Part shown: in pieces, positions 4,406-46,616 of the stretch
Numbering within the stretch: position 1 is the stretch's first letter
Layout of the letters: the number at the start of each line of letters is the position of its first letter
Virus record (IMG/VR): IMGVR_UViG_3300044984_001443
Span: 1-64,000 of that record
DNA: 64,000 bases
DNA from: a virus
Direction: 5' to 3' (one strand)
Notes under the pieces: generated by a model
Seen by the model: the letters and a program-made list of their open reading frames with translations, nothing else
Databases searched by the model: none
What the model was told of the DNA's origin: nothing
Translations under genes and position numbers: made by a program

Positions 4406-4413
4406 GTTACTCA

Positions 4414-4430
4414 ATGCAACTCAGTTGCAT
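4414..4430. promoter_or_regulatory. 17-bp palindrome, second copy
   Basis: ATGCAACT-C-AGTTGCAT has the same arms as the palindrome at 3053-3069. Confidence 0.5.
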
Positions 4431-4432
4431 AA

Positions 4433-4490
4433 CGCCAGCCCGCCAGCCCGCCAGCCCGCCAGCCCGCCAGCCCGCCAGCCCGCCAGCCCG
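4433..4490 (+). repeat. 8-bp tandem repeat, seven copies
   Basis: CGCCAGCC repeated seven times plus CG. It lies in the gene-free stretch 4280-4832. The rest of that stretch (4491-4832) has several short palindromes (GTTACC-AAAC-GGTAAC at 4599-4614, CTAGTAC-GATT-GTACTAG at 4688-4705) but no reading frame I would call a gene. Confidence 0.85.
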
Positions 4491-4832
4491 CACGCGTCTC
4501 GACCCACTCTCGATGCACGCAAACAAGCAAGGGTATAGTAAGGTATAGGCCAGCCAATTGCGTGCGCGTATGGTACGTCGTAGCTCGTCCTAGCCCTAGT
4601 TACCAAACGGTAACGCCCCTTGTACAGTGCACCATGCTAGGTGGCATGGCCTATGCTATTAGCACGCGGCGTGCCAACGACATGCGTCTAGTACGATTGT
4701 ACTAGGACGGACGACGAAGCAAGGACCGTGCCAGCAGTCAGGCGATCGGCGGAGGGCTATACCACCTGATCTGAGCGGCGATTGGGTCCCCACTGTAGGC
4801 TCCTTTACTCCTACCCTGCCGCCAACATATAG

Positions 4833-42657: not shown

Positions 42658-44105
42658 TTTTCAAACGTAAGCCGCGTGACTATCAGCTTGAAGACTTTGA
42701 ACGGTCAAAAGACCTGCGAAACTTCGCCCTTCTATTCGAAATGGGGTTAGGGAAATCCAAGGTAACAAATGACACTGCGTTGCACTTATACAGCAAGGGG
42801 AAGATCAATGCTGTTGCGATCATTGCCCCGAAAGGTATTCATGCAAAATGGGCCAAGGAAGATTTTCCTAATGACTTCCCAGATGGATTGGAATACCGTG
42901 CCGCCGTTTGGCGTTCTGGTAATCAGAAGTCAATTGATGAATGTGAGCGATTATTCAACCCTGGTGAGCGACTTCGCATACTTTGTATGAACATTGAGGC
43001 GTTGAGTCAAGACAAAGGTCCTGCTGAAAAGTTCCTGATTCGCTTTCTTGACTCGACTGATTGCATGTTGGTTGTTGATGAGTCTGATACTATCAAGAAT
43101 CCAGATGCCAAACGAACAAAACGCTTGCTCAAATTGGGTGACAAAGCATCTTACAAGCGGATATTGACAGGTACTCCGATCAATAACTCGGTTTTTGATC
43201 TGTATTCGCAAATGACCTTCCTTGACACTGACATCTTTGGTCAATCGTTTACGAGTTTCAAGCACACTTACGCAGAAGTTCTGCCTCCGACACATCCTAC
43301 AATGATGGCAATCATGCGGAAAGGTGCGCGTTTTGCTCCAGTGCTGGTTGAAAAGGATGTTGACGGTAAGCCGAAGTGGAAGAATCTTGATAAGTTGAAA
43401 GAGGTGATGAAACCGTATGTCGCAATACGGCTCAAGAAAGACCATTCAGATCTCCCTGACAAAGTATATCAGTCAATTTATTATGATCTTGAACGTCGGC
43501 AGCGCAGATTATACGATGAATTAAAGCTCAAAGCGAAGATCGCACTTGAAGATGATACGGTGACTGTCCTGCATAAGATGACATTGATCATGCGTTTGCA
43601 GCAAGTTTTGTCAGGTTATCTTCCAGGTGATACGACTGATGATTTGATTCCATTGTTCAACAATCCAAAAGACAATCCGCGCATTGAAGCTCTATTGACC
43701 TTGCTTGAAACAGTGAGCGGTCAGGTTATCATTTGGTGTCGCTTTGTTGATGAAATCAAACAAATTGCCAAACTTCTTGGTGACGAATGTATCACCTACT
43801 TCGGTGAGACTACGAATCGTGAAGAACGCATTGAATTGTTCAAGACCGGAAAGGTTCGCTACATGGTTGCGAACACTGCGGTCGGCGGAGCAGGTTTGAA
43901 CTTGTCAAACAGTGCGACGGCTGTCTACTACAGTAACGACTTCAGTTATCGCAACCGCGCTCAGTCGGAAGACCGACAACACCGCATCGGTCAAACTGAA
44001 ACTGTGACCTGTATTGATATCGTTGCTGATAATACTGTTGATGAGCATATCACCAAGATTCTTCGTGACAAGAAGGATATCAGTCATGAAATGATGACGT
44101 TATAA
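42654..44105 (+). CDS. SNF2/DEAD-like helicase (SF2)
   Basis: 483 aa. Motif I MGLGKSKV (near residue 31), Ia IIAPKGIHAKW, II VVDESD (near 140), III LTGTPINNS, V GGAGLNLS and VI RAQSEDRQHRIGQ (near 438) are all present. ATP-driven DNA translocase or helicase likely used in replication or recombination. Confidence 0.9.
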   Translation: MIFKRKPRDYQLEDFERSKDLRNFALLFEMGLGKSKVTNDTALHLYSKGKINAVAIIAPKGIHAKWAKEDFPNDFPDGLEYRAAVWRSGNQKSIDECERLFNPGERLRILCMNIEALSQDKGPAEKFLIRFLDSTDCMLVVDESDTIKNPDAKRTKRLLKLGDKASYKRILTGTPINNSVFDLYSQMTFLDTDIFGQSFTSFKHTYAEVLPPTHPTMMAIMRKGARFAPVLVEKDVDGKPKWKNLDKLKEVMKPYVAIRLKKDHSDLPDKVYQSIYYDLERRQRRLYDELKLKAKIALEDDTVTVLHKMTLIMRLQQVLSGYLPGDTTDDLIPLFNNPKDNPRIEALLTLLETVSGQVIIWCRFVDEIKQIAKLLGDECITYFGETTNREERIELFKTGKVRYMVANTAVGGAGLNLSNSATAVYYSNDFSYRNRAQSEDRQHRIGQTETVTCIDIVADNTVDEHITKILRDKKDISHEMMTL

Positions 44106-44139
44106 CGCCGCTTGCATTGACCTGTAATAGTGGGTAAAC

Positions 44140-44167
44140 TTGCTGCACTTACTAAATTGTTTATAGG
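44140..44167 (+). promoter_or_regulatory. possible promoter with TATAGG -10
   Basis: TTGCTG (44140-44145), 16 nt, TATAGG (44162-44167). The TATAGG(G) element recurs before genes at 59974, 63429, 52706 and 46753 and in both copies of the dispersed element. Confidence 0.35.
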
Positions 44168-44175
44168 GTAACAAA

Positions 44176-44523
44176 GTGTCTAAAGTGTACTGCGTGACTG
44201 AACCGATCACTTACCGAGATGGTAATCCAGTTCCGTTATTTGATATTACGCCAGCGATTGAATATGGTGAGATTGAGATTTTGACTCGTCATAATCAGTC
44301 GATGCAATTCAGCGTTCCAATGATTAGAAGTTTGCGCGACAAGTTGAAGGATTTCAATGACAATGATTTCATTCTTCCTGTTGGTGACCCGATAACTATT
44401 GGAGCAGTCTGCGCGGTTGTAGCTGATATCAATGGTGGTTATTACAAGGTGCTCAAGTGGGATAAGAGAACTCGCAAGTACATGCCGATTGAAATTCAAG
44501 TGTGGGGTAGTCAACTTTCTTAA
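44176..44523 (+). CDS. hypothetical protein (115 aa)
   Basis: GTG start preceded by AGGGTAA. Mixed alpha/beta, PITIGAVCAVVADINGG near the C terminus. No family recognised; it lies between the helicase and the HNH-interrupted gene. Confidence 0.6.
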   Translation: MSKVYCVTEPITYRDGNPVPLFDITPAIEYGEIEILTRHNQSMQFSVPMIRSLRDKLKDFNDNDFILPVGDPITIGAVCAVVADINGGYYKVLKWDKRTRKYMPIEIQVWGSQLS

Positions 44524-44536
44524 TATAGGTGCTATA

Positions 44537-45046
44537 ATGGAAAAAGAATTTACGTTGAAAGACTTGATTTTTGCTGCAAAGTTGCAACAGGAGCTTGAGA
44601 ATCAACTCATTAACGAAGAAAATAGGTTGAAAGAAATAAAAGAACAATTGAACTACCAGCGGTACGAAATTGTTCCTGGGATGATGCAAGAACTTGGTAT
44701 CAACTCATTTGAACTTGACAACGGTTACAAGGTGTCAATCAAGGATGAGTATTACGCCAAGATCCCTGAAGCGTTTCAGTATGAGTGTTTCGAGTGGTTG
44801 CGTAAGAACGAACTTGACGGCATTATCAAAACTGCGGTAAACATGAATTTTGGCAAGGGTGAAGATGAATCTGCTCAACATCTGATTGATTGGATGACTG
44901 AGAACGGTTTAACACCTAATGTCAAAGAAACTGTTCACCCGCAGACCCTCCGCGCCTTTGTAAAGGAAAGGTTATCTAATGGTTTGGAACTTCCTATTGA
45001 CTATTTTGGAGCTTCAGTAGTAAAAACTACTGTTATTTCAAAATGA
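44537..45046 (+). CDS. early protein (169 aa) with replaced C-terminal tail
   Basis: Start 44537. N-terminal coiled coil (residues 12-45), then QELGINSFELDNGYKVSIKDEYYAKIP and a tail VHPQTLRAFVKERL...FGASVVKTTVISK. Proteins with this tail are conserved in phage replication regions; function unknown. The HNH gene starts on its stop codon, and the same C-terminal 30 residues are encoded again behind the HNH gene with different codons. Its present 3' end is AT-richer than the rest, like the HNH gene. Confidence 0.75.
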   Translation: MEKEFTLKDLIFAAKLQQELENQLINEENRLKEIKEQLNYQRYEIVPGMMQELGINSFELDNGYKVSIKDEYYAKIPEAFQYECFEWLRKNELDGIIKTAVNMNFGKGEDESAQHLIDWMTENGLTPNVKETVHPQTLRAFVKERLSNGLELPIDYFGASVVKTTVISK

Positions 45047-45603
45047 AACTTATCGATTTGGAAAGATTGAAAGAACTTCTGGACTATGATCCAGAAACAG
45101 GTTTGTTTAAGTGGAAGGTTCATTTAAAATATTCTCCAAGATACGAAGGTGACTTGGCAGGTTACAATAATGAAGGTTATGTTAAGATAACCATCGACGG
45201 CCTATCTTATAGAGCACATCACTTAGCATGGTTTATAACTACTGGAAATTGGCCCAAGTTAGAGATTGATCATATTAATGGTGACAAATCTGACAATTCA
45301 ATCTCTAACCTCAGAGATGTGACCAGAATTGTCAATATGCACAACAAAGGTGAATACAAAAATAACAAAACAGGATACACAGGTGTTCACTGGTATCCTA
45401 GATATGAAAAGTTTGCAGCACAGATAAGAACTAATGGTAAGTGTAAGACGTTAGGTTATTTTGAAACCGCTGAAGAAGCTCACGAGGCTTATCAAGAAGC
45501 CAAACTGAAACAACACCCTTCAGCGTTTGTTAAAGAACGTATGTCGGCAGGTCTTGAACTACCTGTTGACTTTTCGGAGCCTCTGTCGTTAAAACGACGG
45601 TGA
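45043..45603 (+). CDS. HNH homing endonuclease with AP2-like domain, 3'-inserted
   Basis: 186 aa. N-terminal LLDYDPETGLFKWK, HNH core AHHLAWFITTGNWPKLEIDHING and NSISNLRDV, then AP2-like TGYTGVHWYPRYEKF and LGYFETAEEAHEAY. ATG overlaps the stop of the preceding gene (ATGA). The frame runs on into a remnant of that gene (AFVKERMSAGLELPVDF) before a frame difference ends it. AT-rich codons differ from the surroundings. Confidence 0.88.
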   Translation: MKLIDLERLKELLDYDPETGLFKWKVHLKYSPRYEGDLAGYNNEGYVKITIDGLSYRAHHLAWFITTGNWPKLEIDHINGDKSDNSISNLRDVTRIVNMHNKGEYKNNKTGYTGVHWYPRYEKFAAQIRTNGKCKTLGYFETAEEAHEAYQEAKLKQHPSAFVKERMSAGLELPVDFSEPLSLKRR

Positions 45604-45614
45604 TTTCGAAGTAA
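45523..45614 (+). pseudogene. displaced original 3' end of the gene at 44537
   Basis: Adding one T in the TTTT run at 45571-45574 restores DFFGASVVKTTVISK and a TAA at 45612-45614. From AFVKER on, 26 of 30 residues equal the tail of the gene at 44537, but 17 of those 26 use another codon. It is no longer joined to its gene body and partly serves as the HNH C terminus. Confidence 0.8.
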
Positions 45615-45830
45615 AGACTTTGCTGGCAGGCTGACAATCCTACTGTCGTTAACGGAGCATTCTGCACCTGACTTGTCTAACGGTGTGGCGTTAGTTGTGG
45701 AACGTAGATCCGGGGCGAGCATAGCCCGATTGGTCACAACGAGTGCCGACTGACCGGCGTAAGCGGTCATTCTTCAGACTGTGGCAAGTTTGGAGTCTCT
45801 CCCTTAATTGCCAATCAAAAGGAGCCGATC
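45615..45830 (+). promoter_or_regulatory. structured intergenic leader
   Basis: 216 nt without a gene. TGACCG/CGGTCA (45751-45756, 45764-45769) makes a 6-bp hairpin with a 7-nt loop, and GC-rich segments around it suggest more folding. It ends at the AAAGGAG of the next gene. No tRNA or known riboswitch recognised. Confidence 0.35.
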
Positions 45831-46616
45831 ATGGCGAAAACCGAAGTTGCTGTAAAAGAAAACACCGCTGTTGCAATTGCTGATGATGTCTATTCGCAGG
45901 ACGCTGGAAGTGGTTTTGAGGAAACGTCGCAAGAAAGTTATGCGATTCCGTTTCTGAGTATCCTTCAGTCCGGTAGCCCGCAAGTCAAGAAGTCTGATGG
46001 GGCATATATCAAAGGTGCTGAAGAAGGTATGCTATTCAACTCTGTCACCCAGGAATGCTACGGTGAAGAAGGTGTTGAGGTCATCCCCTGTCACTACACG
46101 CAACGCTTTATTGAATGGGGTACGCGTGAATCCGGTGGCGGTTTCTTTGGTGAGCACCTACCATCTGATCCGATTTGCAGCACTACGACTCGTGACGAAA
46201 AAGGTCGCAACCTGTTGCCGAACGGCCATGCTCTCAATGACACGCGCAATCACTACGTCCTGATTCGCCGCAATGGTCAGTTGTCGCCGGCCATCATGAG
46301 CTTGAGTTCCACCCAAATCAAAGCATCCAAGCAGTGGATGTCGATGATGCAAGGTATCAAGCAAAAGAACCCGGCGACAGGTATGTTTGAAATTGCACCG
46401 ATGTTCAGCCATGCGTACAAAATCAACACCGTTGCTCAGTCTAACGACAAAGGTTCTTGGTTTGGTTACAAGTTTGCAATGGTCGGTAAGGTGACTGATC
46501 AGGCTGAGTACGAGGAAGCCAAACAGTTCAACCACATTGTCAAGTCTGGTTTGGCAAAGGTCGAGCGCAAGATGGAAACTGAGGCTGCGAGCAATACTGC
46601 GACTGAGAAGTTCTAA
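45831..46616 (+). CDS. phage DNA-metabolism protein, ssDNA-binding candidate (261 aa)
   Basis: Contains YAIPFLSILQSGSPQVKK, YIKGAEEGMLFNSVTQE, VEVIPCHYTQRFIEWG and KKNPATG-like segments. Such proteins occur beside primase and helicase genes in several podoviruses, where a single-strand DNA-binding role is suspected. Strong ribosome-binding site and biased codons suggest abundant protein, in line with that role. Function inferred. Confidence 0.5.
   Translation: MAKTEVAVKENTAVAIADDVYSQDAGSGFEETSQESYAIPFLSILQSGSPQVKKSDGAYIKGAEEGMLFNSVTQECYGEEGVEVIPCHYTQRFIEWGTRESGGGFFGEHLPSDPICSTTTRDEKGRNLLPNGHALNDTRNHYVLIRRNGQLSPAIMSLSSTQIKASKQWMSMMQGIKQKNPATGMFEIAPMFSHAYKINTVAQSNDKGSWFGYKFAMVGKVTDQAEYEEAKQFNHIVKSGLAKVERKMETEAASNTATEKF

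Follow-up and report, generated by a model that had tools for sequence, protein, structure and literature searches.

The window (the whole stretch of DNA analysed here, 64,000 nucleotides of a 69.6-kb IMG/VR virus record) carries an HNH endonuclease gene directly behind a gp33-like gene whose 3' end has been replaced, and the native 3' end of that gene is found displaced beyond the HNH gene. As judged by sequence comparison, the same end-swapping, at either end of a gene, is present in several unrelated phages. The best explanation, to which a probability of roughly 0.75 is given, is that these loci are end-replacing, splice-free HNH homing elements, in which the mobile unit would consist of an HNH endonuclease gene together with one end of the targeted gene in a form that has diverged in sequence.

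The interrupted gene, gene A (44537-45046, + strand), encodes 169 aa and stops with TGA at 45044-45046. It was assigned by profile matches to the Pam3 gp33-like family (PF23984, phrog_2378), and some of its phage relatives are annotated as host-nuclease inhibitor or DNA-end protecting protein. The HNH reading frame starts with the ATG at 45043, which gives a 4-nt overlap (ATGA) with the stop of gene A, and ends at 45603; it contains HNH_3 and AP2 domains (phrog_99), with the HNH domain intact and AP2 slightly under the Pfam cut-off. A repeat copy of the last 30 codons of gene A, one T short, was found at 45523-45614. With one T restored this copy reads AFVKERMSAGLELPVDF(F)GASVVKTTVISK followed by a stop, and its counterpart in gene A is AFVKERLSNGLELPIDYFGASVVKTTVISK followed by a stop. 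The features are as follows.

44537-44956, + strand: native body of gene A, codons 1-140, with 80% nucleotide identity to the HNH-free contigs L005 and L009
44957-45046, + strand: attached recoded 3' end of gene A, codons 141-169 and stop, sharing 62/87 nt and 9/25 codons with native L005
45043-45522, + strand: core of the HNH homing-type endonuclease (HNH_3 and AP2, phrog_99), its start overlapping the gene A stop (ATGA)
45523-45614, + strand: displaced native 3' end of gene A, sharing 84/87 nt and 25/28 codons with L005
45571-45574, + strand: T run shorter by one base than in HNH-free relatives, also in contigs L002-L004

The start of the HNH gene on the stop of gene A and the position of the second copy, both reported in the initial annotation, were confirmed to the base. 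From F141 onward, attached and displaced tails were identical at 25/29 residues and used the same codon at 9 of those 25; with A140 (GCC/GCG) included, 26/30 residues were identical and 17 of these were recoded, exactly the counts given before. The protein-level score of the tail pair was above 99.9% of 3,000 mismatched pairs (scored for contig L037, which carries the same allele; p=0.0007), the null being made of upstream and downstream pieces drawn from different HNH loci. The first ~17 codons of the displaced tail form the in-frame C-terminus of the HNH reading frame, and the shortened T run puts the displaced copy out of frame. The same allele was found in three further contigs (L002-L004, 99.9-100% over 5.7 kb) with the T missing in each, so the shortened run is not an assembly error. 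As had been claimed at the outset, neither an intron nor an intein is needed to account for the arrangement: a group I intron was rejected since 44000-46600 gave no Rfam match at E<=1 and gene A has its full length ahead of the HNH gene, and an intein was rejected since the stop of gene A precedes the HNH gene, which lies in another frame with no continuous host-nuclease-host frame.

The HNH-free relatives identify the displaced copy as the native end. Six contigs without the HNH gene (L005-L010), with gene A proteins 74-80% identical to that of the window, end gene A in sequence of the displaced type with the extra T present, and then continue directly into an intergenic region and a gp34-like gene. 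Over 87 nt compared with L005, the displaced copy has 84 matches and the in-frame tail 62, and at identical residues the displaced copy shares 25/28 codons with L005 and the in-frame tail 9/25. In the body of gene A 72/107 codons are common with L005, thus the drop is limited to the tail. The native junction lies around codon 141 of gene A, TTTGTTAAAGAACG. These results agree with the earlier expectation that relatives free of the HNH gene would match the displaced copy better, and no relative among L005-L010 ends in the in-frame type of tail. The element has therefore broken the gene and supplied it with a new tail, as was proposed: the reading frame of gene A is complete and its native end stands behind the HNH gene.

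A second, more distant allele was found in contig L014, where gene A has 62% and the HNH protein 72% protein identity to the window. The ATGA overlap is common to both, as is the right-hand joint, HPS before AFVKER, and the displaced tails go with their respective lineages. In L014 the displaced tail is in frame and makes up the C-terminal 29 residues of the HNH protein, from which the copy in the window is understood as this fusion after the loss of one T. L032, an HNH-free relative of L014, matches the displaced tail of L014 at 74/87 positions and its attached tail at 62/87. Thus the HNH gene is present at this one site in L002-L004 and L014, and absent from it in L005-L010 and L032. The similarity of the two tails could in principle be due to chance, to an assembly chimera or to an ordinary duplication of paralogues unrelated to the HNH gene. 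Nothing in favour of this was found, and it is refuted by the relatives, since the allele recurs in three more contigs, the displaced copies match the orthologues of HNH-free relatives and the tail-pair score exceeds 99.9% of the null; its probability is negligible.

Two further observations concern the surroundings of this site. An unrelated small ORF in L032 (3490-3700) starts in the ATGA overlap that is used by the HNH gene in other phages, and its last codons (ATAAGCAAATGA) match the recoded tail of L014; perhaps it is a relic of a lost insertion. The intergenic stretch 45615-45830 contains a GACCGGCGTAAGCGGTC hairpin and is homologous in the window, L014 and the HNH-free L032, with another sequence at the corresponding place in L005, L009 and L010. 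No Rfam family was matched by this stretch, which is possibly an unrecognised structured RNA. As a part of the element it was ruled out because L032 has it too.

The same layout was found once more in the window, on the other strand, in a gene encoding 393 aa for which no Pfam or PHROG match was obtained.

1613-2740, - strand: native body of the second interrupted gene, 393 aa, with 80% nucleotide identity to the HNH-free L430 up to ~1620
1550-1612, - strand: attached recoded 3' end of this gene, 19/30 nt to L430
908-1378, - strand: second HNH gene (HNH_3, phrog_99), with no overlap with the gene in front
868-912, - strand: displaced native 3' end of this gene, overlapping the HNH stop, 29/30 nt to L430

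A third HNH gene of the window (5342-4833, - strand) was also searched for a duplicated gene end and none was seen. Repeats reading GWRAGGLA are located at ~4410-4600, near this gene.

Further cases came from a comparison of the two flanks of HNH genes. Replaced tails (3' type) were found in a rusA-like gene (L021) and in L240/L243; L145 and L129 are, from their sequences, likely cases of this type as well, L145 being weak (30 v 26 of 42) and L129 having no close native. Replaced heads (5' type) were found in L017, in thyX of L050, in rusA of L122, in a helicase gene (L383) and in a DNA methyltransferase gene (L377), and in this type the native head is stranded on the upstream side of the HNH gene. 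The HNH frame of L122 takes its start codon from the stranded head, and in L017 the frame of the stranded head terminates at the start of the HNH gene (ATGCTGA). The insertion lies at Walker A of the helicase in L383 and at the DIPYN motif of the methyltransferase in L377. Beside the end replacement at Walker A, the helicase of L383 (2096-3510) contains an apparent intein-like segment further on (CLDEKTEVLTENGWKS...). L240/L243 and L017 belong to one small gene family (phrog_37302), which has thus been entered at the 3' end in the former and at the 5' end in the latter, by different HNH classes. The displaced end was closer than the attached end to the nearest native sequence in every case compared at the DNA level (both cases of the window, L014, L021, L240, L145, L017, L122 and L050), L145 weakly. 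Matches to the native sequence were 44/57 displaced versus 29/57 attached for rusA of L021, 30/30 versus 17/30 for L240 and 30/42 versus 26/42 for L145 (weak) among the tails, and 62/66 versus 40/66 for L017, 32/36 versus 22/36 for rusA of L122 and 33/33 versus 26/33 for thyX of L050 among the heads.

The origin of the carried end is clearest in thyX of L050. Over nt 61-400 its body shares 97.9% identity with the HNH-free L327, while the first 60 nt (20 codons) match L327 at 37/60 positions (62%) and match L333, which belongs to a different thyX clade, at 47/60. The change occurs at a sharp breakpoint, with 13, 11, 5 and 8 matches in successive blocks of 15 nt and then 15, 14, 15 and 15. The contrast between a body at ~98% and a head at 62%, together with the likeness of the head to another clade, means that a foreign end arrived beside the HNH gene; the thyX end was imported. 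In L017 the matches per 15 nt are 7, 9, 10, 10 and 8 and then 15, 14, 14 and 15, with an equally sharp step at nt 75, and this end, too, was most likely imported. Base composition leans the same way: GC3 of the attached end, the HNH gene and the native gene is 0.55, 0.56 and 0.89 in L017 and 0.32, 0.35 and 0.47 in L021, and in these two and in the window the attached end leans to the HNH gene, not to the host gene.

For the gp33-like gene, whose body is only 80% identical to the nearest native, the border is accordingly not as sharp as those of thyX and L017. In a maximum-likelihood (ML) tree of the 87 nt each attached tail is placed, on a long branch and by a slight preference, with its own lineage; the attached tails of the two phages stand apart in it, and their grouping as sisters is not rejected (deltaL 8.0, AU p=0.08). 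Six codons separate attached from displaced tails in both phages, against one that splits the lineages. Three of the six are two-fold sites, at which recoding has only one possible outcome. A shared ancestry of the two recoded tails is not claimed, since coincidence is forced at those three sites and ML favours the lineage grouping. The initial annotation had regarded the recoded end and the HNH gene as a single mobile unit; the sibling genes and the foreign end of thyX bear this out, and the gp33 tree fails to show an outside origin. From the sibling cases, the gp33 tail would have moved together with its HNH gene. The position of the attached tails among their own lineages in the tree, and the resemblance of their amino acids to those lineages, would also be expected if the end had been duplicated in tandem within the phage lineage, with the attached copy diverging fast to escape self-cutting and no foreign import. 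This is improbable, as the bodies of thyX and L017 are 92-98% identical to HNH-free relatives and the ends only ~60%, a contrast too steep for drift over that time, and the thyX head is closer to another clade.

The end-replacing homing element would work as follows, the cutting site, the repair route and the immunity through recoding being deduced from sequence. The HNH nuclease would cut the uninterrupted allele near the end of the gene, and repair off the element-bearing copy would join the body of the recipient gene to the carried end, so that a full reading frame is restored. The HNH gene would thereby land behind the carried end in the 3' type or ahead of it in the 5' type. The own end of the recipient would be stranded beyond the HNH gene, where at most it could lengthen the HNH protein, and would decay. 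As most synonymous sites are altered in the carried end, the repaired gene would probably no longer show the target. The displaced copy would be without the left half-site and would need no recoding, which is consistent with its near-native state.

Some of the same facts could be produced by a recombination scar. A free-standing HNH gene would then have stood behind a diverged copy of the gene in the donor, homing would have co-converted the adjacent gene end, and an illegitimate far joint inside the end of the recipient gene would have stranded a piece, the replacement end being a by-product. Free-standing phage homing genes do adjoin and often overlap conserved genes and spread flanking sequence (PMC2988022), the displaced pieces differ in length among cases (~30 to 92 nt), and the signature is absent from most HNH loci. 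The single right joint (HPS before AFVKER) shared by the window and L014 with lineage-specific displaced tails, and the repetition of the layout at both gene ends and with two HNH classes, speak against a scar, whose mechanism overlaps in any case with that of the end-replacing element; we regard it as rather unlikely.

Among 164 dereplicated HNH loci, 10 had pair scores above 99% of the null of mismatched pairs, where 1.6 were expected, and 6 of the 10 were real end duplications by inspection. Several high-scoring matches were false: in L095 and L043/L044, HNH genes or fragments with similar C-termini lie next to each other in tandem, and the frames of L133, L101 and L079 seem to be non-coding or of low complexity. 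L122, L377 and L145 scored below the 99% level or fell beyond the narrower range that was searched. The end-replacing layout is thus a minority form, amounting to a few percent of HNH loci. None of eight HNH loci checked in cultured phages had it, so that most HNH genes are not end-replacing.

Homing genes without an intron or intein are known to sit between genes or to split them. The present elements would enter coding sequence near the end of a gene yet leave a full-length gene by means of the replacement end, which would be a third way in which homing genes stay harmless. This would account for some of the chimeric genes of phages and for odd C-termini of HNH proteins, and if true, such elements shift gene ends between phage lineages and so make chimeric genes. 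The presence of native and recoded ends in one genome is in addition a ready test of immunity by recoding alone. On balance we lean towards a widespread and undescribed phage class with at least two HNH classes, in which the carried tail or head works within the element by preserving the gene and removing the cut site, and which produces chimeras.

End-replacing homing appears to be undescribed outside fungal mitochondria. No phage description of it was found in the literature that could be covered, mostly outside subscription journals, which is weak evidence of absence. A review on T4, a survey of homing genes in phages from 2023 and a study of HNH genes in lactococcal phages from 2025 deal with free-standing, intron-borne, intein-borne and gene-splitting nucleases, and term searches of these texts gave no end replacement.

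The free-standing phage homing genes (T4 seg/mob, Skunavirus HNH) resemble the present elements in that the nuclease adjoins or overlaps a conserved gene, and in mobE/nrdA it starts on the stop of its neighbour (UAAUGA); they differ in being inserted between genes or splitting one, and the accessible portions of the reports mention neither a carried end nor a displaced native end (PMC2988022, PMC12724721). According to the same portions, the recipient is assumed to gain resistance when donor sequence takes the place of its target. In the T5-like phages Shivani and phiR201 the spanin pair is split by a GIY-YIG gene, which lies at the very end of a gene whose new terminus is unlike that of relatives, but the nuclease is of another family and no displaced second copy of the end is reported (PMC6139136). 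In mitochondria of the ascomycete Endoconidiophora resinifera, C-terminal duplications of atp6 and cob occur with endonuclease ORFs, the partial copy being near the gene or set apart from it by these ORFs; as far as the source was available, the ORFs are several or degenerate, intergenic and mitochondrial, with no mention there of a head-replacing form (PMC6279837).

The closest parallel is that of the fungal mitochondrial mobile ORFs that carry the C-terminus of a gene, and the likeness to atp6 of Allomyces suggested in the initial annotation is a real one (PMC3630166). The available text of this source describes such ORFs in atp6 of Allomyces macrogynus, in atp6, atp9, cox2 and nad3 of Glomus sp., in atp9 of Rhizopus and in cox2 of Mortierella, the displaced native C-terminus being 91-98% identical to relatives and the attached one 64-81% (PMC3630166). 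In both systems an endonuclease gene stands behind a replaced end, the displaced native end is closer to relatives and there is no splicing element. The fungal ORFs, as given in that text, are of the LAGLIDADG or GIY-YIG type, in organelle genes and of the 3' type only (PMC3630166), whereas the present elements carry HNH(-AP2) nucleases, lie in phage and prophage genes and include 5' cases in which the head of the gene is replaced.
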